This document shows, one piece after another, positions 14,979 to 32,090 of a DNA stretch of 64,000 bases. Under the pieces are notes generated by a model. It was not told where the DNA came from, ran no database searches, and was given only the letters and a program-made list of their open reading frames with translations. Source of the stretch: Verrucomicrobiota bacterium (GTDB lineage: Bacteria; Verrucomicrobiota; Verrucomicrobiia; Opitutales; Opitutaceae); contig JAQGON010000045.1 of the NCBI GenBank assembly GCA_028293565.1, positions 1-64,000 of the forward strand. Direction: 5' to 3'. The first letter of the stretch is position 1. The number at the start of each line of letters is the position of its first letter. The position numbers were made by a program, and so were the translations under genes.

Positions 14979-15133
14979 TGCCACTATCCGCGACCCGCTC
15001 CCGGCCTTCAGCCACCGGCAAAATTCACCGATCCTTCCGCCTTTCCGCCATGTCCTCAGCCCCGTCGATCCTCTCCATCCGCTGACCGCCGAAAGCTGAC
15101 GGCTGATCGTCTCCTTCGCTGCCCGCTCCTCCC

Positions 15134-17086
15134 ATGCGCACCAAAGTCACGCTCGTCCTGCTGTTCATGAACGTCGCCCTGTTCTTTTATATTTTCCAGG
15201 TGGAGCGGCGGCAGCAGACCGACCGCGCCTACCAGGTCACGCGCGCCAACGTGCTCGGCGCCGAGGCCGCCGACATCCGGTCGATCGAGGTCACGGGCGG
15301 CACGCACGTTCTCTCGCTCGCCAAGCGCGGCGACACCTGGTTCGTCACCTCGCCGCTCGAGTGGCCGGCCAACCCGAACGCCGTCAACCGGATCCTCACC
15401 GAGCTCCAGTTCCTCCGCCACGAAACGAGCTTCAATGTCGCCGACCTCGCGAAAAGCGGGCAGTCGCTCGCCGACTACGGCCTCGAAAAACCCAGCCTCA
15501 CGCTGACAATCACGTCGGGCGATCCCTCGAGCCCGTCGCGGGCCGACGGCACCACGCAGGTCACCAAGCTGCAGATCGGCGACCTGACGAAGGACGGCCT
15601 GCGCCTTTATCTTCTCTCCCCGGACCGCGAACGCATCCACGTCGTCAGCCAGAGCCTGGCGCGCAGCCTCGCTTTGACCTTCGACGACCTGCGCGCCGAC
15701 GCGCTGTTCACGATCCAGGTGTTCGAAGCCCGCTCGCTCAATCTCCAGACCGCCGCGCCGGCCAGCCTGCGGATCCGCCTGCGGCGCGACGGGAACCGCT
15801 GGTCGTTCGAGACGCCGATTGTCGCGCGCGCGAGCAAGAACGCCGCGGAGCTGGCGATCAACGGCCTCAATGCCCTGCGGGTGGCGTCGTTCATCAGCTC
15901 GAACCCGCGCGCCACTTTGCCGGGCGAAAAACCGTCGCTGCGGATCAGCCTCGAGGGAAACAACCGGCGCGAGACGCTCATCCTCGGGGACCCTGCCCCC
16001 GCCGGCGGCGACGCGCCGTCCGCCGGGAACCCGTTGTTTTATGCCCAGCTGGAGGGCCGGAGCGCGCTGTTCACCGTCAGCATCCCGAAGAGCCTGCTCG
16101 ACACGCTGCGCTCGGCCCAGGTCTCGCTGCGGGAAACGCGCGTCCTCGACTTCGATCCCGCGGCGGTGAACGCCATCACGCTGACCGCCCCGAACCAGCC
16201 CGAGCTCGCCCTGCAGCGTCTCGAGACGGCCGCGGCCGGCGCGGACGGTTCGGCGTGGCAGATCGTCCGGCGCGGCGAGGGCGCGGCCGGCCCGCAGACC
16301 AAGCCCGCCGACCGCGGGCGCGTGCAGCGGCTGCTCGACCAGCTGGCCCGCCTCACCGCCAGCGATTTCAAAAGCGATGCGCCGAGCGCAGCCGACCTCG
16401 AGACGTGGGGATTCAACCGGCCCGAGCGCGAAGTCAGCCTCGCCCTGGTCGGCGGCGCCGCGCCCGTCGCATTCCAGCTCGGCACGGATTCGAGCCGAAA
16501 TGTCTACGCGCGGCTCGGGACCTCGGCAAATCCCGGGCCTTCGATTTACGCCGTCGACCCGGCCGTGCTCACGGAATTGCCCGTCGCATCGAAGGACTGG
16601 CGGGACCGGTTGCTGCGGGAACTTCCGGCCGGCGCCAAGCTGACCGCGCTGAAGCTCGTCGACTTGTCCAACAACCAGACGGTCCTCGACACCGCCATCG
16701 ACGCGGCCGGCAAGCTCGTCGCCGCCGTGCCTCACCCCGACGCGGTCGGCGCCCTCGTCGCGCATCTCCAGACCCTTCGCGCCAAGGCCTTCGTCCTCGA
16801 TCAGTTCGCGGAAAAGGTCACGGTCGCCGGCGAGGAGCGCCCCTGGCGCTATCGGCTCGACGCGACTGCCACGCTGGTCGGCGGCGCCGGGGAACAGACG
16901 AGCGTCACCACCCTTTTCCTGAGCGTCCGCGTCGGAGGCGACCTGCAGCTGGCCGGTTCGCCCGCGGCCGATTTCAACACCGTCTTCTCGATCGAGCAGC
17001 CTCTGCTCGATGCGCTCTGGACCGTCACCGAAGGCCCGCACGACCCGGGCGCGCCGCCGGTGCCGCCGGCGCCGGCCGCGAAATGA
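15134..17086 (+). CDS. DUF4340 domain-containing protein
   Basis: N-terminal TM MRTKVTLVLLFMNVALFFYIFQVER; repeated IEVTGGTHVLSLAKRGDTWFVTSP / WGFNRPEREVSLAL units; adjacent to the GldG-like gene. Confidence 0.82.
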   Translation: MRTKVTLVLLFMNVALFFYIFQVERRQQTDRAYQVTRANVLGAEAADIRSIEVTGGTHVLSLAKRGDTWFVTSPLEWPANPNAVNRILTELQFLRHETSFNVADLAKSGQSLADYGLEKPSLTLTITSGDPSSPSRADGTTQVTKLQIGDLTKDGLRLYLLSPDRERIHVVSQSLARSLALTFDDLRADALFTIQVFEARSLNLQTAAPASLRIRLRRDGNRWSFETPIVARASKNAAELAINGLNALRVASFISSNPRATLPGEKPSLRISLEGNNRRETLILGDPAPAGGDAPSAGNPLFYAQLEGRSALFTVSIPKSLLDTLRSAQVSLRETRVLDFDPAAVNAITLTAPNQPELALQRLETAAAGADGSAWQIVRRGEGAAGPQTKPADRGRVQRLLDQLARLTASDFKSDAPSAADLETWGFNRPEREVSLALVGGAAPVAFQLGTDSSRNVYARLGTSANPGPSIYAVDPAVLTELPVASKDWRDRLLRELPAGAKLTALKLVDLSNNQTVLDTAIDAAGKLVAAVPHPDAVGALVAHLQTLRAKAFVLDQFAEKVTVAGEERPWRYRLDATATLVGGAGEQTSVTTLFLSVRVGGDLQLAGSPAADFNTVFSIEQPLLDALWTVTEGPHDPGAPPVPPAPAAK

Positions 17087-17215
17087 GTGAACGGCGCCGT
17101 CTGCCCCGTGCTGGATCCAGGCGGAAGCAGTTCGGCGGAAGCTCCAAGCTCAAATGAACCTTCCAGCCCGGAACCACCCTCGGAGCAGCGCCGCGCCTCC
17201 GCTTCGCAACCATCC

Positions 17216-19969
17216 ATGAAGTCCTGGTGGCATCACTGCAGGCGCGGCGCGTCCTTCTGCGGACATGGCGCACTGCGCCTGCTGCGCTGGACCCTCTGGC
17301 TGGTCCTCTCGCTCGCGCTGGCGTTCCAGATCTGGATCGCGGCGTCCCGCGAGCTGGCGCTGCCGGCGTTCGTGCTCCGGATGCTGGAGGACCGCCTCGC
17401 GGCCTCGCAGGTCCAGGTGAAATTCGGGCACGCGCGCTTCGACCAAGCTGGGCGCATCCTGGTGGAGAACGTCACGCTTTCGCTCCCCGCCTACCGTGAA
17501 CCGATCGCCGTCGCCCAGGCCGCCTATCTCGAGCTGGACCCGTGGGAGCTTCTCGCCGGAAAATTCACGCCGCAGCGGCTTCACCTCACGGGAGCCCGGT
17601 TCGCCGTCCCCGCCATGCTCTCCCGCTCCGGGCAGGCGGAGGACATCGTCCGCGATCTCGATGCCACCGTGGACCTGAACGGCAACGAACTCGTCATCGA
17701 GCACCTGACCGCGCGCGTCGCCGGAATCGCCGCGGTGGCGCGCGGCGGCGTTCATCTCCGGCCGCGCACCGACACACGCGCGGCGGCGCTGCCGATCGCG
17801 GACTCGCTCGCGCGGAACTATCCCGCGGTCTGCCGCCAGCTGATCCGCGCCGCCGAACGGCTCACGGCGCTCGATCAGCCGGAACTCCGCGTCGACCTCA
17901 CGCCGTCCGAGACCCGCGCCGCCATCGCCACGGTCAGCGTCTCCGCGCGCGGCCTGAAACTTTCCGAACCCTACGCGGTCGAGGCCCAGGGCCTTCGCCT
18001 GACGACGCGCTTCCCCCTGCAGGGCGACACGCCGGTGATGGCGCCGCTCACCTTGGAGGTCGACGCCTTGGAAGTGGGCCACGAGGTCTCGGTCCGGGCG
18101 CTGCGGGCCCGCCTGCGCGGCGCGCTGCATCCCTCGCAGTACACCTACGACCCCCGCGACATGCAGCTCGGCGCCGCCGGCATTTCGGCGCGCGGCTTCG
18201 CCGTCGGCGAACTCTCCGCGCGGCTCACGGCGGGGCCCCTGCCCCGGATCGAAGGCGAACTCGTCGCGGAGTGTCTCGGACAGCTCCTCGCCTTCCGCGG
18301 GGAAGTGGACCTCAGCCGGCGGACCGCATCAATGCGCTTCAACGGCGCCCTCGCTCCGGAACTGCTCGAGCCGATCGAACGGGCGATCGGGCGGGATGTC
18401 CGCCCCTACCTCAATTTCGGCGCACCCGTCCGGATCGACGCGCGCGCCGTCTTCGAACCCGGCTGGAAATTTCGCCGGCTGACCGGCCATTTCCATGCCC
18501 GCCAGGTCGACGCCTTCCGCGTGCCGATCGACGAGGGTGGAGGCGAGATCGATTTCGACGGGATCCGGTTCGTGGCGCGCCACGCGTTCGCGCGGCTCGG
18601 GGATAATTTTGCGCGAGGCTCCTTCGAGCAGGATTTCTCGGACCTCCGCTTCCGCTTCCTCCTCGAGGGACGCCTCCGCCCGCTCGCGATCTCGGGCTGG
18701 TTTGGAAAATGGTGGCCCGCGTTCTTCGAGGACTTTGACTTCCCCGTCGCGCCGCCCGAGGCGAGCGTCGACGTGACCGGCGAGTGGAAGCAGGGCCGGC
18801 GGACCACGGTGTTCGTCTTCGCCGACAGCGCCGGACCGGTCGTCCATGGAGTGAAGTTCGATCACATGCGCACCCTGATGTTCATCCGCCCGAACTTTTT
18901 CGACGGGCTGGAGCTGTTTGCGACGATCGGCTCGGGGGCGGCGAGAGGAACCTTCGCGCGGCAGATCGACCCCGCCACGTATCATCTGGTCGGGATGGAC
19001 CTGGATTTCGAGTCCAGCCTGCCGATCGGAGTCGCCGGGGAGATTTTCGGGGCGTCAATCGCCGCGCAGGTCGACCCGGTCCATTTCGCGGTCTCGCCCG
19101 CCATCAAGCTCAAGGCGCGGTTCGACGGGCCGGCGTCCCCCGACGGCGTGCATCAGGCGATGAAATTGTCGGCGCAGTCGACGGGCGAGTTTTCCTATTA
19201 CGGCTTTCCGCTCAGCGAACTCGCCGTGAAAGTCTCGCTGCACGACGACGAGGTCGCGCTCGACGATGTCTCCGTCAATTTCGCCGGCGGGACGGTCAAC
19301 GGCAAGGCGCGGGTCTGGGGGAAGGACGCGGAGCGCCGCCTCGGCTTCGACCTTGCGCTGCGCGGCGGCAGCCTGGGCCGCGCGGTGCGGGTGATGGAGG
19401 AGTTTTCCGCGGCGCGGAAAGGAGTCCCCCTGCCGGCGCCCGGCAAGTTTGTGCAGGACAAGGCGCAGGTCGCGCTGGACCTGGCGGCCTCGGCGGAGGG
19501 GCTGTTCGCCGACCCCTTCAGCTACAAGGGCGAGGGGCACGCGACGCTTGAAGGCGCGGCGCTCGGCGAGGTCCACATGCTCGGGTTGCTCTCCGAACTG
19601 CTGTCGTTCACGTCGCTGCGCTTCACGGCGGCGCGGGCCAACTTCAAGGTCGACGGCCCCCGGCTCGTCTTTTCCGACATCGCCGCGACGGGCGCAAATT
19701 CCGCGATCGACGCGCACGGCAGCTACGACCTGCGCGAGCGCCAGCTCGATTTCAAGGCACGGCTGAAACCGTTCCAGGAAAGCAAATTTCTCCCGTCGCT
19801 GCTGATCGGCGCCGTGCTCACGCCGTTCACAAGCGTGCTGGAGGTGAAGCTGACGGGCACGATCGACAAACCGTCGTGGGCGTTCGTCAACGGGCCGACG
19901 AATTTCTTCCGCAATCTCGCAAAGCCGTCCGAAGCAGCGCCACCCAAGCCCGATTACCTCCGTAGGTAG
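17216..19969 (+). CDS. AsmA/TamB-like membrane-anchored large protein
   Basis: ATG at 17216 MKSWWHHCRRGASFCGHGALRLLRWTLWLVLSLALAF; C-terminal SAIDAHGSYDLRERQLDFKARLKPF...LTPFTSVLEVKLTGTIDKPSWAF. Confidence 0.75.
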   Translation: MKSWWHHCRRGASFCGHGALRLLRWTLWLVLSLALAFQIWIAASRELALPAFVLRMLEDRLAASQVQVKFGHARFDQAGRILVENVTLSLPAYREPIAVAQAAYLELDPWELLAGKFTPQRLHLTGARFAVPAMLSRSGQAEDIVRDLDATVDLNGNELVIEHLTARVAGIAAVARGGVHLRPRTDTRAAALPIADSLARNYPAVCRQLIRAAERLTALDQPELRVDLTPSETRAAIATVSVSARGLKLSEPYAVEAQGLRLTTRFPLQGDTPVMAPLTLEVDALEVGHEVSVRALRARLRGALHPSQYTYDPRDMQLGAAGISARGFAVGELSARLTAGPLPRIEGELVAECLGQLLAFRGEVDLSRRTASMRFNGALAPELLEPIERAIGRDVRPYLNFGAPVRIDARAVFEPGWKFRRLTGHFHARQVDAFRVPIDEGGGEIDFDGIRFVARHAFARLGDNFARGSFEQDFSDLRFRFLLEGRLRPLAISGWFGKWWPAFFEDFDFPVAPPEASVDVTGEWKQGRRTTVFVFADSAGPVVHGVKFDHMRTLMFIRPNFFDGLELFATIGSGAARGTFARQIDPATYHLVGMDLDFESSLPIGVAGEIFGASIAAQVDPVHFAVSPAIKLKARFDGPASPDGVHQAMKLSAQSTGEFSYYGFPLSELAVKVSLHDDEVALDDVSVNFAGGTVNGKARVWGKDAERRLGFDLALRGGSLGRAVRVMEEFSAARKGVPLPAPGKFVQDKAQVALDLAASAEGLFADPFSYKGEGHATLEGAALGEVHMLGLLSELLSFTSLRFTAARANFKVDGPRLVFSDIAATGANSAIDAHGSYDLRERQLDFKARLKPFQESKFLPSLLIGAVLTPFTSVLEVKLTGTIDKPSWAFVNGPTNFFRNLAKPSEAAPPKPDYLRR

Positions 19970-19980
19970 GATCGGCCGCG

Positions 19981-20330
19981 CACTCGATCCGGTTTTTGAA
20001 CAGAAGCGAACGAAGGAAACGAAGCGCCGTCCGTGCGCGAAGCCAGGGTTGCAGGCGGAGGCCAATTCGGAGGAGGGTTCGGAAACCCAACCCATCATTG
20101 GGTGCGGCTCGCAACCGCCTTCAACGGACCGCACTCGATCCGGTTTGAACAGAGGCGAACGAAGGGAACAAGGAGCCGTCCGTGGGAAATGCGAGGGTTG
20201 CAAGCTGCATCCGATGATTGGGGTTTCCGAACCCTCCTCCGAATGACCCTCCGCGTGCAACCCAGGGTCCGCATGCGAACAGCGCTTCGTTTCCTTCGTT
20301 TGCTTCTGTTCAAATTCCGGTGCCCGGTCG
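19981..20330. repeat. Nested direct and inverted repeat cluster filling the whole intergenic region
   Basis: TTTGAACAGAAGCGAACGAAGGAAACGAAGCGC at 19995-20027 vs inverted copy 20282-20314 (1 mismatch); second direct copy from 20132; inner GGAGGAGGGTTCGGAAACCC also inverted. Confidence 0.9.
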
Positions 20331-20391
20331 CTCATCTTGGAAAACTCGTTGTACTCGCTCGGGCGGGACCTTATTCAGGGCGCATCCCTTG

Positions 20392-23300
20392 ATGGCAATT
20401 CCGCCCCAACCGACCAGGCGCTCCTGGCTTGAGCTGATCTCGCTGGTTCTTGCGGTGGCGCTTATCCTCATCGGCGCCGGCAGCCTGGCGGGCTGGTGGC
20501 TGCACCTCGACGTCCTCGTGCAGCCGCTGATCGCGTTCGCGCCGATCGCCGCCAACGAGGCCGCCTGCATCTTCCTGCTCGGCGGCGCGCTCCTCGGCGT
20601 GGAATTGCGCTGGTTTCCCCCGGCGTGGTTTGCGCTGCCGGCTGTCATCATCACCAGCCTCACGCTCGGCGAGTATGCCTTCGGCGCGGATTTCCGGATC
20701 GACGAACTTCTCGTGCGCGACCACCTGCTGGTCGACACCTCGTACCCGGGACGGATGTCGCTCGCCTCCGCGTGCTCGCTGCTGCTCGTCGCCGGATCGT
20801 TCGTCTGGCGCGGCATCCACCGCGTCGTCCGCACCCAGGCCTTCATCGGCGGCGTCGCCGGATCGATCATCGCGGCGGTTGGCTGTTCGACGCTGCTCGG
20901 CTACGCCGCGAGCGTCCCCGCCGTTTACAGCTGGGGTACCGGGACCGCGATCTCGCCGGTCGGCGGCGCGGCGCTGCTCCTGATCGGTCTCGCCCTGCTC
21001 GGATTGTCGTGGCGCGAGGCGCTCCAGGCGGAGGGCGGCACCCCGACGTGGTCGCCCATCCCGGTGTTCACCGCGTGTCTCACCCTCACCGTCATCCTCT
21101 GGATCGGCCTGCGCGCGCGCGAGCAGGGCTATGTCGGCGCGAAGACGCAGACGGCGATGGAAGGGCTGGCGAGCACGATCAACTACGAGCTCGACCGCCA
21201 GAAATCCGTGATCGAGCGGCTGGCGGGCGACTGGAGCGCGAACGCGCGGGACTCCCGGGCCCTCGGGGAAGCCGACGCGCGCCGCCGGATGGACGAGCTG
21301 TCCCAATTCGGCTGCGTCGCGGTCGACTGGGTGAACCTCGATTTTCGCACGGCGTGGGTCTATCCGCAGGCGGCCAATGAAGGCGCGGCCAATTACGATC
21401 ACCGCCACGACGAGGAGCGCCTCGATGCGCTCAACCGCGCGCTGCGAGAAAAGGTGTCGGTGGTCTCCGCCAGCACGGACATCGGCGGCCGCGGCAAGGG
21501 TTTCGTGATCTACGCGCCGGTGATCCGCGCGGGAAGCGTCGGGGGCTTCGCCGCCGCCGAGTTTCCCTACCGGCCATTCTTCGCGACGGTCATCAACCAG
21601 CGGAAGCTGGCGAACGATTATCGGATCGCGGTTTCGATCGGGACCGAACGCCTCTTCGAGTCGGCCGTCCGCTCGTCGCCGCGGAATGCCGACCTCACCG
21701 TCGAGAAGACCTATCCCATTTTCGACCGCCGGATGCGGCTGAGCTTCATGCCCTCCGACACGGCGCTGGCGAGCGACCGCCGGCTGCTGCCCGAACTCGC
21801 GCTCCTCGCCGGTCTCGGCATCACCGGGCTGCTCGGCCTCAGCATCCATTTCGCGCGCCGTTCGCGGGCGGGGCAGCGCGCCGCGGAGTTTTCCAACCAG
21901 CGGCTCGTGGCGGAAAACGAGGAGCGCCGCCGGATCGAGGAGCGGCTCAAGGTTTCCGACGAGCGCCTGCGGCTCGCTCTCGACTCCACGCAGATCGGCA
22001 TCTTCGAGTGGAACGTCGCCGCCGGCCACGTCTACTACAGCCCCGGCCTGTGGGCGATGCTCGGCTATGAACACCACCGGATGCCGGCCACGGTCGAGGC
22101 GTGGCAATCGTTGATCCACCCCGACGACCTCCCGCTCTACCGCGAGCGCACCGCCGACCAGTTCGACCGCCGGGTGACCTTCATCGAGGCCGATTACCGG
22201 GTCCGCGCGAAGGCCGGCGAGTGGCGCTGGGTCTTCACGCGCGCCAAGACCGTCGCCACCCAGGCCAGCGGCCGGCCCGAACGCATCATCGGCACGGTCC
22301 AGGACATCACCGCCCGCCGGGAAACCGAGCTCGCGCTGCGCGAGAGCCAGGCCGAGGCCCGCAAGCTTTCGCTCGTCGCCTCGAAGACCGACAACCCCGT
22401 CCTCATCGGGTCGCCCGACGGTGTCATCGAGTGGGTCAACGAAAGCTTCTGCCGCGTGATGGAGTATTCGCTCTCCGAGGTGATCGGGCGCAATCCCGCC
22501 GACTTCATGATCGGCCCGGAAACGAACCCGCGCACGATCGTCCAGATCCGCTCCGCGATGGCGCGCGGCCAGGGCCTCAGCACCGACGTCGTCAACTACT
22601 CGAAATCCGGGCGCAAGTACCACCTCCACCTCGAAATCCAGCCGATCCGCAACGACGCGGGCCAGCTGGAGAACTTCATCGCGATCGAGTCGGACATCAC
22701 CGCGCGGGTCGAAACCGAGGCCCAGCTCCGGCTCGCCAAGGCCGAGGCCGACGCCGCGTCGCGGGCGAAGAGCGAGTTCCTCGCCTCGATGTCGCACGAG
22801 ATCCGCACGCCGATGAACGGGGTGATCGGCATGACGAGCCTCCTGATGGAGACCACGCTCAGCGACGAGCAGCGGGACTTCGTCAACACGATCCGCGTCT
22901 CCGGCGAGGCCCTGCTCACCATCATCAACGACATCCTCGACTTCTCGAAAATCGAGTCGGGCAAGATGGATCTCGAGCAGGTCCCGTTCGAGCTCGCGAG
23001 CTGTCTCGAGGAAACCCTCGACCTCTTCGCCCCGCAGGCCGCGGCGAAGCAGATCGAGCTCGCCTGCCACATCGACCCTTCGACGCCCGCCTGGATCCTC
23101 GGCGACATCACGCGCGTGCGCCAGATCCTGGTCAACCTCGTCAACAACGCCGTGAAATTCACGCCGCACGGCAGCGTGTCCGTCGAAGTCCGCGCGCTGC
23201 CGCCCGTCGCGCCCGGCGCCCAGTTTCCCCTCGAGTTCACCGTCCGCGACACGGGCATCGGCATCCCGCCGGACCGCGTCGGCCGGCTCTTCAAGGCGTT

Positions 23301-24327
23301 CAGCCAGGGAGACTCCTCCACCACCCGCAAATACGGGGGCACCGGCCTCGGCCTCGTCATTTCCCAGAGCCTCGCCACGCTCATGGGGGGCGAGATCCGC
23401 GCCGAAAGCACGGTGGGAAAAGGCGCGGCGTTCACCTTCACGATCCGCACCGAGGCGACACCCGTGCCGCTGGAAAACTCCGCGCCGGCCCTCGACCCCG
23501 CGCTGCGGTCCGGCCCGGTGCTGTGCATCGAGGACCATCCCGTGACGCAGCTGCGGCTGAAGACCTTGATAGAGTCGCTCGGCGGCCGGTGCGTGTTCGC
23601 GCCCGACATCGAGGCCGGCCTGAAGCTGGTCCCTGGGCTTCCGCAGCCGCCGACCCTGCTGGTCGTCGACTTCGATCGGAATCACCACGGCCCGGATCTT
23701 GCGCGCCTGCTCGCCCTGAAAGCGCCGTGTCTCCTGATGCTGCCATTCGGGCAAAGCGCGCCGGCCCGCGGGGAAAACGAGCCGCCGGTCGCGGTCGTGC
23801 ACAAGCCGCTTCGGACCAGCGCCCTGATCCACGCCTTCAACCAGCTGGCCAGCCCGGGCTCGCGGCTGTCCCACGCCGCCGGCGCTTCCTCGGCGTCAGG
23901 AATTCTCCTCGCCCACGAATTTCCGCTGAACCTGCTCCTCGCCGAGGACAACACGGTGAACCAGAAGGTCGCGCTGCGCTTCCTCGAGCGGCTCGGCTAC
24001 CGGGCCGATGCGGTGGGCAACGGACTCGAGGTGATCGCCGCGCTCGGCTCTCGTCACTACGATGTCGTGCTTATGGTTCTCCAGATGCCGGAGATGGACG
24101 GACTGGAAGCCAGCCGGCAGATCCGCCGCATCCTCCCGCCGGAGCGCCAGCCGAAGATCATCGCGCTCACGGCGAACGCGATGCAGGGCGACCGCGAGCT
24201 CTGCCTGGCCGCGGGCATGGACGACTACGTCAGCAAGCCGGTGAAGCTGCATGAAATTTCCGCCGCAATCCGCCGCCTCTTCGGCAAGCCGGTCGAGACG
24301 CCGGTCGGCGAGCGCCTGATCGGGTAG
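20392..24327 (+). CDS. Hybrid sensor histidine kinase (MHYT/MASE-like TM region, CHASE, PAS repeats, HisKA, HATPase_c, two receiver-like domains)
   Basis: EFLASMSHEIRTPMNGVIGMTSLL H-box; VNLVNNAVKFTPHG N-box; KYGGTGLGLVIS; receiver ILLAHEFPLNLLLAEDNTVNQ...; two PAS/PAC blocks. Confidence 0.95.
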   Translation: MAIPPQPTRRSWLELISLVLAVALILIGAGSLAGWWLHLDVLVQPLIAFAPIAANEAACIFLLGGALLGVELRWFPPAWFALPAVIITSLTLGEYAFGADFRIDELLVRDHLLVDTSYPGRMSLASACSLLLVAGSFVWRGIHRVVRTQAFIGGVAGSIIAAVGCSTLLGYAASVPAVYSWGTGTAISPVGGAALLLIGLALLGLSWREALQAEGGTPTWSPIPVFTACLTLTVILWIGLRAREQGYVGAKTQTAMEGLASTINYELDRQKSVIERLAGDWSANARDSRALGEADARRRMDELSQFGCVAVDWVNLDFRTAWVYPQAANEGAANYDHRHDEERLDALNRALREKVSVVSASTDIGGRGKGFVIYAPVIRAGSVGGFAAAEFPYRPFFATVINQRKLANDYRIAVSIGTERLFESAVRSSPRNADLTVEKTYPIFDRRMRLSFMPSDTALASDRRLLPELALLAGLGITGLLGLSIHFARRSRAGQRAAEFSNQRLVAENEERRRIEERLKVSDERLRLALDSTQIGIFEWNVAAGHVYYSPGLWAMLGYEHHRMPATVEAWQSLIHPDDLPLYRERTADQFDRRVTFIEADYRVRAKAGEWRWVFTRAKTVATQASGRPERIIGTVQDITARRETELALRESQAEARKLSLVASKTDNPVLIGSPDGVIEWVNESFCRVMEYSLSEVIGRNPADFMIGPETNPRTIVQIRSAMARGQGLSTDVVNYSKSGRKYHLHLEIQPIRNDAGQLENFIAIESDITARVETEAQLRLAKAEADAASRAKSEFLASMSHEIRTPMNGVIGMTSLLMETTLSDEQRDFVNTIRVSGEALLTIINDILDFSKIESGKMDLEQVPFELASCLEETLDLFAPQAAAKQIELACHIDPSTPAWILGDITRVRQILVNLVNNAVKFTPHGSVSVEVRALPPVAPGAQFPLEFTVRDTGIGIPPDRVGRLFKAFSQGDSSTTRKYGGTGLGLVISQSLATLMGGEIRAESTVGKGAAFTFTIRTEATPVPLENSAPALDPALRSGPVLCIEDHPVTQLRLKTLIESLGGRCVFAPDIEAGLKLVPGLPQPPTLLVVDFDRNHHGPDLARLLALKAPCLLMLPFGQSAPARGENEPPVAVVHKPLRTSALIHAFNQLASPGSRLSHAAGASSASGILLAHEFPLNLLLAEDNTVNQKVALRFLERLGYRADAVGNGLEVIAALGSRHYDVVLMVLQMPEMDGLEASRQIRRILPPERQPKIIALTANAMQGDRELCLAAGMDDYVSKPVKLHEISAAIRRLFGKPVETPVGERLIG

Positions 24328-24555: not shown

Positions 24556-25779
24556 TCACGATAGGAGCACCGTCCGCAGCCGGTCAATTTCGGCCCGGCT
24601 AGCCGGATTCCCGACGAGATTCGTCATCTCCCACGGATCGCGCTCGAGATCGAAAAACAGCCAAGGCGTCCCGTCGTCATTCAGGATCAGTTTCCGATCC
24701 CGTGTCCGCACGCCGTGCCAGACCCGGTCGCATTGATGCGGCAGGGCCACGACCGACGGCATCGAGATGCGCGCCGCGCCCGCACGACCGGGAATCCATT
24801 CCGCGCCGCCGCTCCATGCCGCAGTCATCGCCGGCAGGTCCAGAAGTGAGACCGCCGCATCGTCCTTCCGCGGCTGGACGCCGGGCCGCCGCACCAGTAG
24901 CGGGACGCGCACGCTCTCCTCGTACGGCCAGCCTTTGCGAAAAAGCCCGTGCGCCCCGTGCATGTCCCCGTGCACGCTCGTGAAACCCACGATCGTCGGC
25001 CCAGCCGTCTCCGACGACAGGTTGCGCAGCATTCTTCCGATCGCCCGGTCGGTCGCCTCGATGTGGGCATGGTATCCCGCCAGTTCCTTCCTGGCCGTCT
25101 TTTCCGCGGGGCCGCCGAGAGGGACGTTCGGCGCCAGCACGATCGCGGCCGGATCGCGCGCCGTCACTCCCGCTGCCGGCGCGTCGTAGGGTGGATGCGG
25201 CGCCTCGAGGCTGACCACGCAAAAACGCGGACGGGAATCCCGCGCTTCGTCCCCCGCGAGCCACCGCGCCGCGCGGTCGGCCAGCACGTCGCTCTGATAT
25301 CCCCTCACCTGCACCGGCACGGGCAGCGCGGTCCCGTGCAGCCACGGGTCGTTGAGCAGAAATCCGCCCTCGAAACCCTCCCAATGGTCAAATCCTCCGC
25401 GGGCACCGGGAGGAACGAGCGTTTTCGCATGCGCCTCCCCCACCAGCGGCGCCGCCGCGTCACGTTTGCCGAGGTGCCACTTCCCGAAAAACGCCGTCGC
25501 ATAGCCGAGGGACTTCATCGCGCCGGCAATCGTCCGTGAGTCCAGCGGCAGCGGATCGAAGTAATCCCGCACGCCGTTTTCCGGCGACGTCACGCCGGTG
25601 AGCATCGCCGCCCGCGCAAACGGGCCGAACGGATGGGGCGTGACCGCCTGCGTGAAATTCACGCTTTCCGCGGCGAACGCATCCAGGCAGGGCGTGCGCG
25701 CATTCGGATCGCCCGCATGACCGAACGCCGAGGCGCGCCACTGCGTCGTGACAATCCAGAGGATGTTCGGGCGCGGCAT
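24556..25779 (-). CDS. Sulfatase-fold protein lacking catalytic residues (pseudo-sulfatase)
   Basis: MPRPNILWIVTTQWRASAFGHAG..., GYATAFFGKWHLGK, VGFTSVHGDMHGAHGLFRKGWPYEESVRVPLLVRRPG sulfatase architecture; CxPxR replaced by FGPFAR. Confidence 0.88.
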   Translation of the reverse strand: MPRPNILWIVTTQWRASAFGHAGDPNARTPCLDAFAAESVNFTQAVTPHPFGPFARAAMLTGVTSPENGVRDYFDPLPLDSRTIAGAMKSLGYATAFFGKWHLGKRDAAAPLVGEAHAKTLVPPGARGGFDHWEGFEGGFLLNDPWLHGTALPVPVQVRGYQSDVLADRAARWLAGDEARDSRPRFCVVSLEAPHPPYDAPAAGVTARDPAAIVLAPNVPLGGPAEKTARKELAGYHAHIEATDRAIGRMLRNLSSETAGPTIVGFTSVHGDMHGAHGLFRKGWPYEESVRVPLLVRRPGVQPRKDDAAVSLLDLPAMTAAWSGGAEWIPGRAGAARISMPSVVALPHQCDRVWHGVRTRDRKLILNDDGTPWLFFDLERDPWEMTNLVGNPASRAEIDRLRTVLLS

Positions 25780-29040: not shown

Positions 29041-30432
29041 CTACTGCAGCTTCACGGGCAGCGACATTTTTCGGGCGGCGAGGGCGTTGAGGAGTTCGCC
29101 GGTGTGCTGGGCGGAGACGTCGTCGCCGGTGCGGATCGTTTTGTTCGGGAGAAAATTGTTCACCACCGCGCAATAGTCGCTGTTGACCATGATCCCGAGC
29201 AGCTCGCCGGTCTTGCTCAGGACCAGATCGCCGCGCGAAGGGGCGAAATCGCCGAAGAGCCGTTTGAAAAGCCGGTTGTCGACCCGCACATAACCGGGCT
29301 GCGACGCATCCAGCTTGAAGCCGACATCGCCGTAGCCCTTCCCTCCCCCGTTCACCAGCACGGCCTCGGTGAACTTCACCGGATCGAGGGCGGTGGGGTA
29401 GACCTTGACGCCGAGCGCCGCGGCCTGCGTCGCGTCCACGGGCATGGCGACCACGCGCGGGTCCACCGAAAGGAAATGGATGGCCGACGCCCTGCTCGGC
29501 GCCGTCGCCCCGCGCGAGAACTCCACGCTGACCTTGTCCCAGTCATAGCTCGTCTCGCTCAGCGTGAACGGCGTGTCGTCGACGTGCAGCAGCGCATAGG
29601 TCCGGTCGCCGTCGGTGACAAGGACCGTCGACGAGGTCTTCTCGCGCGTCGCCGGGCCAAGCAGTCCGCGGCGCACGGCGGTGAACCGTGCCGTGACGCG
29701 GTTGGCGAGGTAATCGTTGAAGAGAACGTTCGCGTTGATCGGGCGGTTGTCGCGGATCTCCTTGGTAAGCTCGCCGGATTTTTCCGCGAGCTGGCCGACG
29801 CCCTGCGCGAGCTGGGTGGTGGTTTCCTGGACCTTGAGCCGGTCCTGCCGTTCGACTGCGGCCTGCGTTTTCAAGGTCTCGGCGGTCTCCCGCAGCATCT
29901 GCTTTTCCTGCTCGGCGACCTTCACCGCCACCGTCAGGCCCTCGATTTTCTGGCGGGACTCGGCCTGCTGCTGGTTGAGCAGGGCGAGCGCGGCCTTCTG
30001 GCGTTCGGCCTCGGCGCGCTTGTCCTCGAGCTCCTTCTGGATTCGTGCGAGTTGCTCCTTGGTCAGCGTGGCATCCTTCGTCGCCGCGGCAACCTTCTGG
30101 CCAAGGTCGGCGGCGGTGCGCTGCGTGGCGTCGAGCGAGCTGGCCAGTTTTTCGCGCTCGGCCTGGAGCTGCGTCAGGTTCTGGTCGCGCTGCGCCAGCG
30201 TGGACTCGGTCGAGGAAAGTCTCCGGGTGAGCTGCTCGCGCGTGGCGCGTTCGTCGGCGAGCGAGAGCTTCATCGTCTCGACGATGTCCTGGTCCTTGGT
30301 GACGGCGTTGGCGGCGACTTCGGGCACGGGCGGCTGCTTCGCGCGCGCCGGCTCCGCCTTTTCCCAGCGCGTGAGCGCGAGGAGGTTGAGCAGGAGAAAG
30401 TCGCAGAGGATGAGCAGCAGGGTCTTGTTCAT
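29041..30432 (-). CDS. Membrane-anchored coiled-coil protein with C-terminal trypsin-like-fold-resembling domain (unknown function)
   Basis: ATG at 30432 MNKTLLLILCDFLLLNLLALTRWEKAEP; long heptad-like region; C-terminal SRGDLVLSKTGELLGIMVNSDYCAVVNNF. Confidence 0.75.
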   Translation of the reverse strand: MNKTLLLILCDFLLLNLLALTRWEKAEPARAKQPPVPEVAANAVTKDQDIVETMKLSLADERATREQLTRRLSSTESTLAQRDQNLTQLQAEREKLASSLDATQRTAADLGQKVAAATKDATLTKEQLARIQKELEDKRAEAERQKAALALLNQQQAESRQKIEGLTVAVKVAEQEKQMLRETAETLKTQAAVERQDRLKVQETTTQLAQGVGQLAEKSGELTKEIRDNRPINANVLFNDYLANRVTARFTAVRRGLLGPATREKTSSTVLVTDGDRTYALLHVDDTPFTLSETSYDWDKVSVEFSRGATAPSRASAIHFLSVDPRVVAMPVDATQAAALGVKVYPTALDPVKFTEAVLVNGGGKGYGDVGFKLDASQPGYVRVDNRLFKRLFGDFAPSRGDLVLSKTGELLGIMVNSDYCAVVNNFLPNKTIRTGDDVSAQHTGELLNALAARKMSLPVKLQ

Positions 30433-32090
30433 GGCTTCGCGACGGGCAGGGACTGGCTGTCGAGGATGAGCTGGCGCTTGTAGGGCCGCACGTGGCGGAT
30501 CTTCACGAGCGCGACGCACGTGATGCCGAAGAGGTTCGAGGAATAGGCCGCGAGCAGGTTCGGCTCGATCACCCCGAGCACCTGGAGCACGAGCGCGGTC
30601 GCCGTGCCGCCGATGCCGACGTAGAGGCCGCCGTCGAAGAGGTTTTCCTCATTCTCCATCAGGCGGAGCTTCACGAGCGGCGTCAGGTCGCTGCGGGAAA
30701 TCTCCCGGATTTTCAGGAGACAGATGAAATACATGACGATCTGGAGCACGGCGAAGAAGCCGATGGAAATGAGGGTGGAGGCGTCCATGTTGGGAGTGGG
30801 TTTGGGAGCAGAGTGGTCGGGAGGGGTGGAAGTGGAAACCAGGACAGGAAGAACCAGGCGCACGCGGTACTCGGAGACCGGCGCCGCCTTCAGCAAGAAC
30901 GGCTCCGTCACGACGATGAACAGGGCGGAGAAGAGAAGCGCGAGAATCCCGCTCTTCATGTGGATCAGGCTGGCGGGCGCGCCGGTGGAAGGCGTGACGA
31001 TCCACCGGTCCATTCCGCGGAGAAGGAAAAAAGCGCCGACCAGATACCCGAGGTATTTCAGCGCAATCATCACGCGCGGATGAAGAATCACGAGCGACGC
31101 CGCCGCGACGAAACCGGCGCTTGGCCCGCGGTTGACCGGGACCTGCCAGCGCAGCAGCTGGTTCACGGCGCCCTGTCCGTCCGCGAGCGCCGTCCGGAGA
31201 TCCTCCAGCCCGGGCTTGCCGTACTTGATCAGATACGTGGCCACCTGGTCGGCGGATCCGGAAAAAAGGGAGGCCGCGTAAATCATCGGAAGCTGGTCCG
31301 GCGCCACGCGCGCGAGGTGTGCATATTCGCCGACGGTCTTGGTGTCCTCCGTCCGCCGGAGCAATTCACCGAGCTGCGCCCAGTCGAGCCGTTTTCCCAG
31401 CGAAAGCAGGTCCACGAGGAAAGGCTCGAGTTCCCCGAGGTCCTTCTGGGTGACGGCGGAGTCGGCGAGATTCCGCAAGTCCCGCTGGAGCGGCGGCGCG
31501 AGGTGCTCGCCCTGGTAAAGCAGGGCCGTCAGGAGGACGACCGCCTCGAGCGTCTGCCCGCCCGGCTCGGACACCGGCACAAAGCGGCCCGTGGACGTGA
31601 TCTCGCGCGTCCGCAGGAGCGCCTGCACGCCGAGCGAGCGCGACGTCGCGAGGTAATCGCGGAGCTTGGTGCGCGCCTGTTCGGTGATGAAAAAGGTGAG
31701 GACGGGCGTGCTGGCGGTGTGCCCGCGGTTTTCGCGCAGGTTGAAGAGCGGATCGAGAAAGGGGTCCCACCCGCCCCACGCGACCATCTCGGGAGCGTGC
31801 GCGGACAATTCGCCGAGGGATTTCTCGAGCTGGGGAGCGAGGGGATCGTTGACGGCCTGCGCAGCGGCGAGCGTGAGGGCGGCAGGGCCGATTTTCTCCG
31901 ACTGGACGAGCTGGAGTCCGAACTGGCCCAGCGACGGGGTTCCGGCGCCCGCCTCGCGCAGGAGCGCCGGGCTGATGGACTTGAGATTCACCGGCAGGGA
32001 CCACGCGGCCAGGGCGATGATGGCGCCGACCGCCACGAGCAGCGGCCCCGTGAGATTCCAGTGGCGGGCGCGTGGGCTTGGTTCGCTCAT
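30429..32090 (-). CDS. Hypothetical polytopic membrane protein
   Basis: 553 aa, N-terminal TM and a C-terminal cluster of TMs; ATGA overlap (30429-30432) with the next gene. Confidence 0.75.
   Translation of the reverse strand: MSEPSPRARHWNLTGPLLVAVGAIIALAAWSLPVNLKSISPALLREAGAGTPSLGQFGLQLVQSEKIGPAALTLAAAQAVNDPLAPQLEKSLGELSAHAPEMVAWGGWDPFLDPLFNLRENRGHTASTPVLTFFITEQARTKLRDYLATSRSLGVQALLRTREITSTGRFVPVSEPGGQTLEAVVLLTALLYQGEHLAPPLQRDLRNLADSAVTQKDLGELEPFLVDLLSLGKRLDWAQLGELLRRTEDTKTVGEYAHLARVAPDQLPMIYAASLFSGSADQVATYLIKYGKPGLEDLRTALADGQGAVNQLLRWQVPVNRGPSAGFVAAASLVILHPRVMIALKYLGYLVGAFFLLRGMDRWIVTPSTGAPASLIHMKSGILALLFSALFIVVTEPFLLKAAPVSEYRVRLVLPVLVSTSTPPDHSAPKPTPNMDASTLISIGFFAVLQIVMYFICLLKIREISRSDLTPLVKLRLMENEENLFDGGLYVGIGGTATALVLQVLGVIEPNLLAAYSSNLFGITCVALVKIRHVRPYKRQLILDSQSLPVAKP

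Follow-up and report, generated by a model that had tools for sequence, protein, structure and literature searches.

A pseudo-sulfatase kept across the Opitutaceae, with its catalytic and metal-ligand residues replaced, as a probable non-hydrolytic binding protein

What does a sulfatase-fold protein do once the residues that carry sulfatase chemistry have been replaced? Conserved pseudoenzymes are known among kinases, proteases and phosphatases. The literature that we searched, which included few subscription papers, yielded no description of a conserved pseudoenzyme of the sulfatase family, and no conserved pseudo-sulfatase clade in which the nucleophile and both metal Asp residues are missing. 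The question is raised here by a gene on the minus strand (24556..25779) of the window, by which we mean the whole stretch of 64,000 nucleotides that was analysed, from a bacterium of the Opitutaceae. This single gene starts with ATG and runs for 407 codons plus a stop with zero internal stops, and its 407-aa product is without a signal peptide. With a probability of roughly 0.6, as judged from sequence and predicted structure, we read the product as an ancient, vertically inherited Opitutaceae protein that binds a sulfated or phosphorylated small molecule without hydrolysing it.

The product is matched across its whole core by PF00884 (Sulfatase; E 9.8e-37, 127 bits at a cut-off of 25), which places it in the alkaline-phosphatase-like fold of the S1 sulfatases. 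An AlphaFold2 model built from 62 aligned orthologues has a mean pLDDT of 94.0 and a pTM of 0.94, pointing to an intact predicted fold, and a Foldseek search with this model returned 6j66 as the top solved structure (E 2.9e-30). The sulfatase fold that had been proposed in the sequence-only reading of this DNA is borne out by all three results. The top Foldseek matches are chondroitin/dermatan sulfate 4-O-endosulfatases and yidJ of B. fragilis (E 3e-30 to 5e-29, TM 0.83–0.85 by query length, 24% identity), and a profile search against the PDB ranks 2qzu best (E 7e-46). These proteins (6j66, 6s21, 8di0, 2qzu) are alike in fold, with TM scores of 0.80–0.85 by query length, but they share 22–25% identity with the pseudo-sulfatase, carry the Cys or Ser and the metal Asp residues, and are glycan enzymes of ~490–520 aa. 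Because 132 of 135 orthologues lack a hydrophobic leader ahead of their first strand, the pseudo-sulfatase is most likely a cytosolic protein, and a secreted one was rejected on the same count.

Which residues have been lost? Three active-site losses had been named in the sequence-only reading, and all three are real and, beyond what it had stated, fixed across the family; one of them had been assigned to the wrong residue. The formylglycine position had been placed at Phe51, but the Arg of the C-x-P-x-R motif lies at +4 from the Cys, and since R56 is conserved the formylglycine position is 52. The 22 nearest outside sulfatases align as C52-x-P54-x-R56 with the motif free of gaps (S-P-L-C-C-P-F-R against H-P-F-G-P-F-A-R in the pseudo-sulfatase), and in the PDB profile alignment the wild-type, C84S and C84A entries of PsS1_NC show C, S and A, respectively, opposite G52. 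Phe51 is ruled out by the Arg spacing together with these two independent alignments. The segment G52-P53-F54-A55-R56 (25612..25626, minus strand) replaces C-x-P-x-R, and the G52 codon (25624-25626, minus strand) stands in the place of the formylglycine Cys; the position is Gly in 135 and Ala in 1 of 136 orthologues. The Cys or Ser of the S1 motif [CS]-x-P/A-x-R is absent here (Gly52). The motif Pro is also gone (F54), with Phe, Gln, Met, Trp, Leu or His at this position among the 136 sequences.

The two metal-ligand replacements, read earlier as TTQ and TSVHGD, are as had been described. T11-T12-Q13 (25741..25749, minus strand) replaces the metal-ligand motif [GA]-D-Q, with T12 in the place of the Asp (Thr in 134 and Ser in 2 of 136 orthologues). 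In V269-H270 (24970..24975, minus strand), V269 (24973-24975, minus strand) stands in the place of the catalytic and metal-ligand Asp, the position being Val in 121, Ala in 13, Met in 1 and Thr in 1. By motif, Thr12 and Val269 match Asp13 and Asp317 of AtsA, two calcium ligands that show 96% and 99% conservation among 4058 FGly-sulfatases (PMC5066984), and also Asp14 and Asp296 of the S. meliloti choline sulfatase SmCS (6fny), where both are metal binders that hold the divalent metal together with His297 and where fGly54 is the nucleophile (PMC5870055). The SmCS plan of D14-Q15 / C54 / K102-H104 / H201 / D296-H297 / K309 (PMC5870055) has its counterparts in T12-Q13 / G52 / K100-H102 / H195 / V269-H270 / K282, with Thr, Val and Gly in the pseudo-sulfatase against Asp14, Asp296 and the nucleophile.

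The nearest S1 sulfatases outside the clade (L134-L138, L168-L184), mostly from other Verrucomicrobiota families and of the same fold at about 32–44% identity, share D24, R56, K100, W101, H195, D244, H270 and K282 with the pseudo-sulfatase, but unlike it they have a full formylglycine/metal site with Cys52, Pro54, Asp12 (one Glu), His102 and Asp269 and read [GA]DQ / C-x-P-x-R / SDHGD in their motifs. In these 22 sequences, which make up the entire comparison set outside the clade, position 12 is Asp in 21 and Glu in 1, and positions 52, 54 and 269 are Cys, Pro and Asp in all 22, whereas none of the 136 distinct orthologues keeps any of Asp12, Cys52 and Asp269. SulfAtlas records that some PF00884 proteins without a catalytic residue may be inactive, and TxNxE proteins are noted there (PMC5066984); unlike the family-wide clade, these inactive-looking S1 sequences are scattered, with one loss each or another motif. 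Residues of the known mechanism, including counterparts of both AtsA metal ligands, are missing from every one of the 136 pseudo-sulfatase orthologues, as expected of a pseudoenzyme. Judging from these residue losses it is near certain that sulfatase chemistry has been lost, and the protein would be incapable of formylglycine- and metal-dependent sulfate ester hydrolysis.

Taken by themselves, losses at catalytic residues are compatible with a decaying pseudogene as well, and the window belongs to a fragmented assembly (239 contigs), which would be compatible with an isolated sequence or assembly error. How widely, then, is the altered site shared? A search of 150 Opitutaceae genomes gave a match in 148 at E 0.001, of which ~140 are orthologue-grade, typically at 50–75% identity and usually with one copy per genome; the genomes lacking an orthologue-grade match are mostly incomplete assemblies. 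A scan of a collection brought up 80 loci under the titles Opitutaceae, Opitutae, Opitutia, Opitutus, Cephaloticoccus, Ereboglobus or Verrucomicrobia. Beyond the Opitutaceae, a sample of the order held no orthologue-grade match and only 11 genomes at E<1e-50; its best match outside the family lies at ~5e-61 with 37–44% identity, a sharp drop that recurs outside the Opitutaceae in a phylum-wide sample. In a tree calculated from data without the trait positions 12, 52, 54, 102 and 269, a single branch (SH-aLRT 100) sets all orthologues apart from the other sequences, and the median dN/dS is 0.17 (30 pairs, each of at least 82% identity), so that this single clade has been kept under purifying selection, again as expected of a pseudoenzyme. 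One genome (G033) has two divergent copies (loci L146 and L147) with the same losses in both; its assembly is listed with 7% contamination, and the two copies may come from two organisms.

The same losses thus recur in intact frames throughout a set of 136 distinct sequences that spans two collections and many genomes. This conservation rules out recent decay or assembly error, and together with the dN/dS value and the near-universal presence it makes a decaying pseudogene or an isolated error scarcely credible as an account of the gene. It had been suggested from the sequence alone that a clade with shared substitutions should be sought and dN/dS determined on orthologues. The clade was found, selection on it is purifying, orthologues with Cys and both Asp residues, which would have spoken against that reading, did not occur among the 136, and the judgement that the losses do not reflect recent decay holds on the strength of the single branch, the dN/dS value and near-universality in the family. 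The non-hydrolytic role proposed at the same time likewise gains support from the conserved clade, its dN/dS and its near-universality.

Could the protein work in the service of another sulfatase? The pseudo-sulfatase's own genome encodes no other S1 sulfatase, its second PF00884 match being a phosphodiesterase-like protein; anSME was looked for there and none was found. It does encode one FGE-domain protein, and FGE domains are present also in proteins with other functions. A link to sulfatase maturation was rejected, as the genome is without anSME and the pseudo-sulfatase without a Cys or Ser to modify. The protein cannot serve an active sulfatase as a subunit in its own genome because none is encoded there, and a role as subunit or regulator of such an enzyme was also discarded on the finding that in ~25 of 150 family genomes this is the sole relative to appear.

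The neighbourhood of the gene was considered as context only. A CHASE/PAS hybrid histidine kinase (20218..24327, plus strand) is its convergent neighbour and adjoins the pseudo-sulfatase in 35 of 70 loci with enough flank. In the C-terminal receiver of this genome's kinase (LMVLQMPEMDG, around residue 1290), Val stands at the phospho-acceptor position, while all 36 related kinases with a readable motif in orthologous loci have Asp; the Val is thus confined to this genome, as an isolated substitution or a sequence error. On the strand of the pseudo-sulfatase, and upstream of it, lie two overlapping genes without a Pfam family, for a membrane-anchored coiled-coil protein (29041-30519, minus strand) and a multi-pass membrane protein (30429-32090, minus strand). 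Roughly half of the Opitutaceae loci that were compared keep the pair upstream, and these include the most divergent group of loci. Beyond the kinase, 15107-19966 (plus strand) encodes a DUF4340 protein and an adjacent 959-aa protein without a Pfam match, both conserved; of 48 loci whose flank is long enough, 35 have the 959-aa protein. We take these two to be possibly a gliding/ABC-transporter-like auxiliary pair. Operon partners were dismissed, as the pseudo-sulfatase and the kinase gene run towards each other and the upstream same-strand genes often lie apart from it. The synteny looks like slow rearrangement, and the arrangement is consistent with a core locus under vertical inheritance and not with a cluster for glycan degradation. 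A pathway or enzyme partner was sought in the neighbourhoods of the orthologous loci and none was indicated. This would be compatible with a scaffold or protein–protein interaction module, in which the fold provides a stable surface and the old pocket goes unused for ligand, and so would the non-carboxylates at both metal Asp sites.

What has been kept in the old pocket? Q13, R56, K100, W101, H195, D244, H270, D272 and K282 show no variation in 136 orthologues. R56, K100, H195, H270, K282 and D244 are invariant in the 22 outside sulfatases alike, and Q13 is found in 21 of these 22. The Arg, Lys, His and Lys of a cationic sulfate site are all present as R56, K100, H195 and K282; in active enzymes the cationic pocket residues are sulfate-contacting or leaving-group residues. 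K100 lies in K100-W101-H102 (25474..25482, minus strand) and is the sulfate-contacting Lys by homology to choline sulfatase Lys102 (PMC5870055), H195 (25195..25197, minus strand) is the leaving-group/sulfate His, and K282 (24934..24936, minus strand) is the sulfate-site Lys; in choline sulfatase, the equivalent Lys309 touches Gln15 and pairs with His201 (PMC5870055). H102, the FGly-contacting His by homology to choline sulfatase His104 (PMC5870055), is relaxed, being His in 92, Gly in 29 and Gln in 15 orthologues. Mean conservation is 0.89 within five residues of ten classical site positions but 0.66 over the rest of the protein, and each of 406 circular shifts gives a poorer result than the real placement. 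Near-invariant residues specific to the clade (H49, Y73, F136, G139, F140, Q162, P196, T243, W284, M340) are mostly in loops beside the site motifs. The pattern that emerges from these alignments is one in which nucleophile and metal ligands are lost, the oxyanion grip is kept and a specific pocket is strongly constrained.

This pattern bears on each of the other roles that the protein might have. In a pure scaffold one would expect surface patches to be conserved and not the pocket, but here conservation is highest in the old pocket and the sulfate-gripping residues are constant in 136 sequences, which makes a scaffold unlikely. A weak sulfate or phosphate ester hydrolase might bind metal in an unusual way via Q13, H270 and a ligand or water, and both residues, which are metal-adjacent in choline-sulfatase-type enzymes, are indeed invariant; yet position 52, as Gly or Ala, offers no nucleophile, the two carboxylate metal ligands are lost and His102 is Gly or Gln in 44 of 136 orthologues, and we regard such activity as very unlikely. 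A repurposed enzyme would instead use the old site for a reaction that needs no metal, in which the hydroxyl of Thr12 or Thr11 and the invariant His195, His270, Lys100 and Lys282 might be the catalytic groups. All 136 orthologues have Thr or Ser at position 12, a restriction that could reflect a new role in catalysis and not just binding. Around the site, histidines 49, 195, 270 and 274 as well as Lys residues are invariant, and a pocket for a specific substrate is suggested by the clade-specific Y73, F136, G139, F140, Q162, P196, W284 and M340. However, metal-free catalysis is to our knowledge without precedent in the alkaline phosphatase superfamily, no member of which is known to us to work without metal, and we consider a repurposed enzyme rather unlikely. 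The conserved cationic residues could, alternatively, have been kept for folding.

We favour the reading as a non-hydrolytic binder and propose the following course. A cytosolic S1-type sulfatase would have lost its Cys (now Gly52), its Pro (F54) and its Asp pair (T12, V269) before the Opitutaceae diversified. The cationic residues that hold the sulfate group (R56, K100, H195 and K282) have been kept, along with Q13 and H270, in an otherwise highly conserved pocket, where one conserved sulfated or phosphorylated small molecule would most likely be bound stably in the cytosol without hydrolysis; we infer that binding would be used for sensing, allosteric regulation or carriage. More tentatively, the protein might be a metal-free cytosolic sensor of the alkaline-phosphatase fold (or a metal-independent enzyme) whose target, a sulfated or phosphorylated metabolite, matters to almost every member of the Opitutaceae; a sulfatase turned receptor would then be a shared derived trait of the family.

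In conclusion, the pseudo-sulfatase offers a natural test of what the sulfatase pocket binds minus nucleophile and metal. Domain searches score it as a sulfatase, and in the widespread Opitutaceae it would be miscounted as evidence of sulfated-glycan degradation. It is kept by almost the whole family, even in genomes without an active sulfatase.
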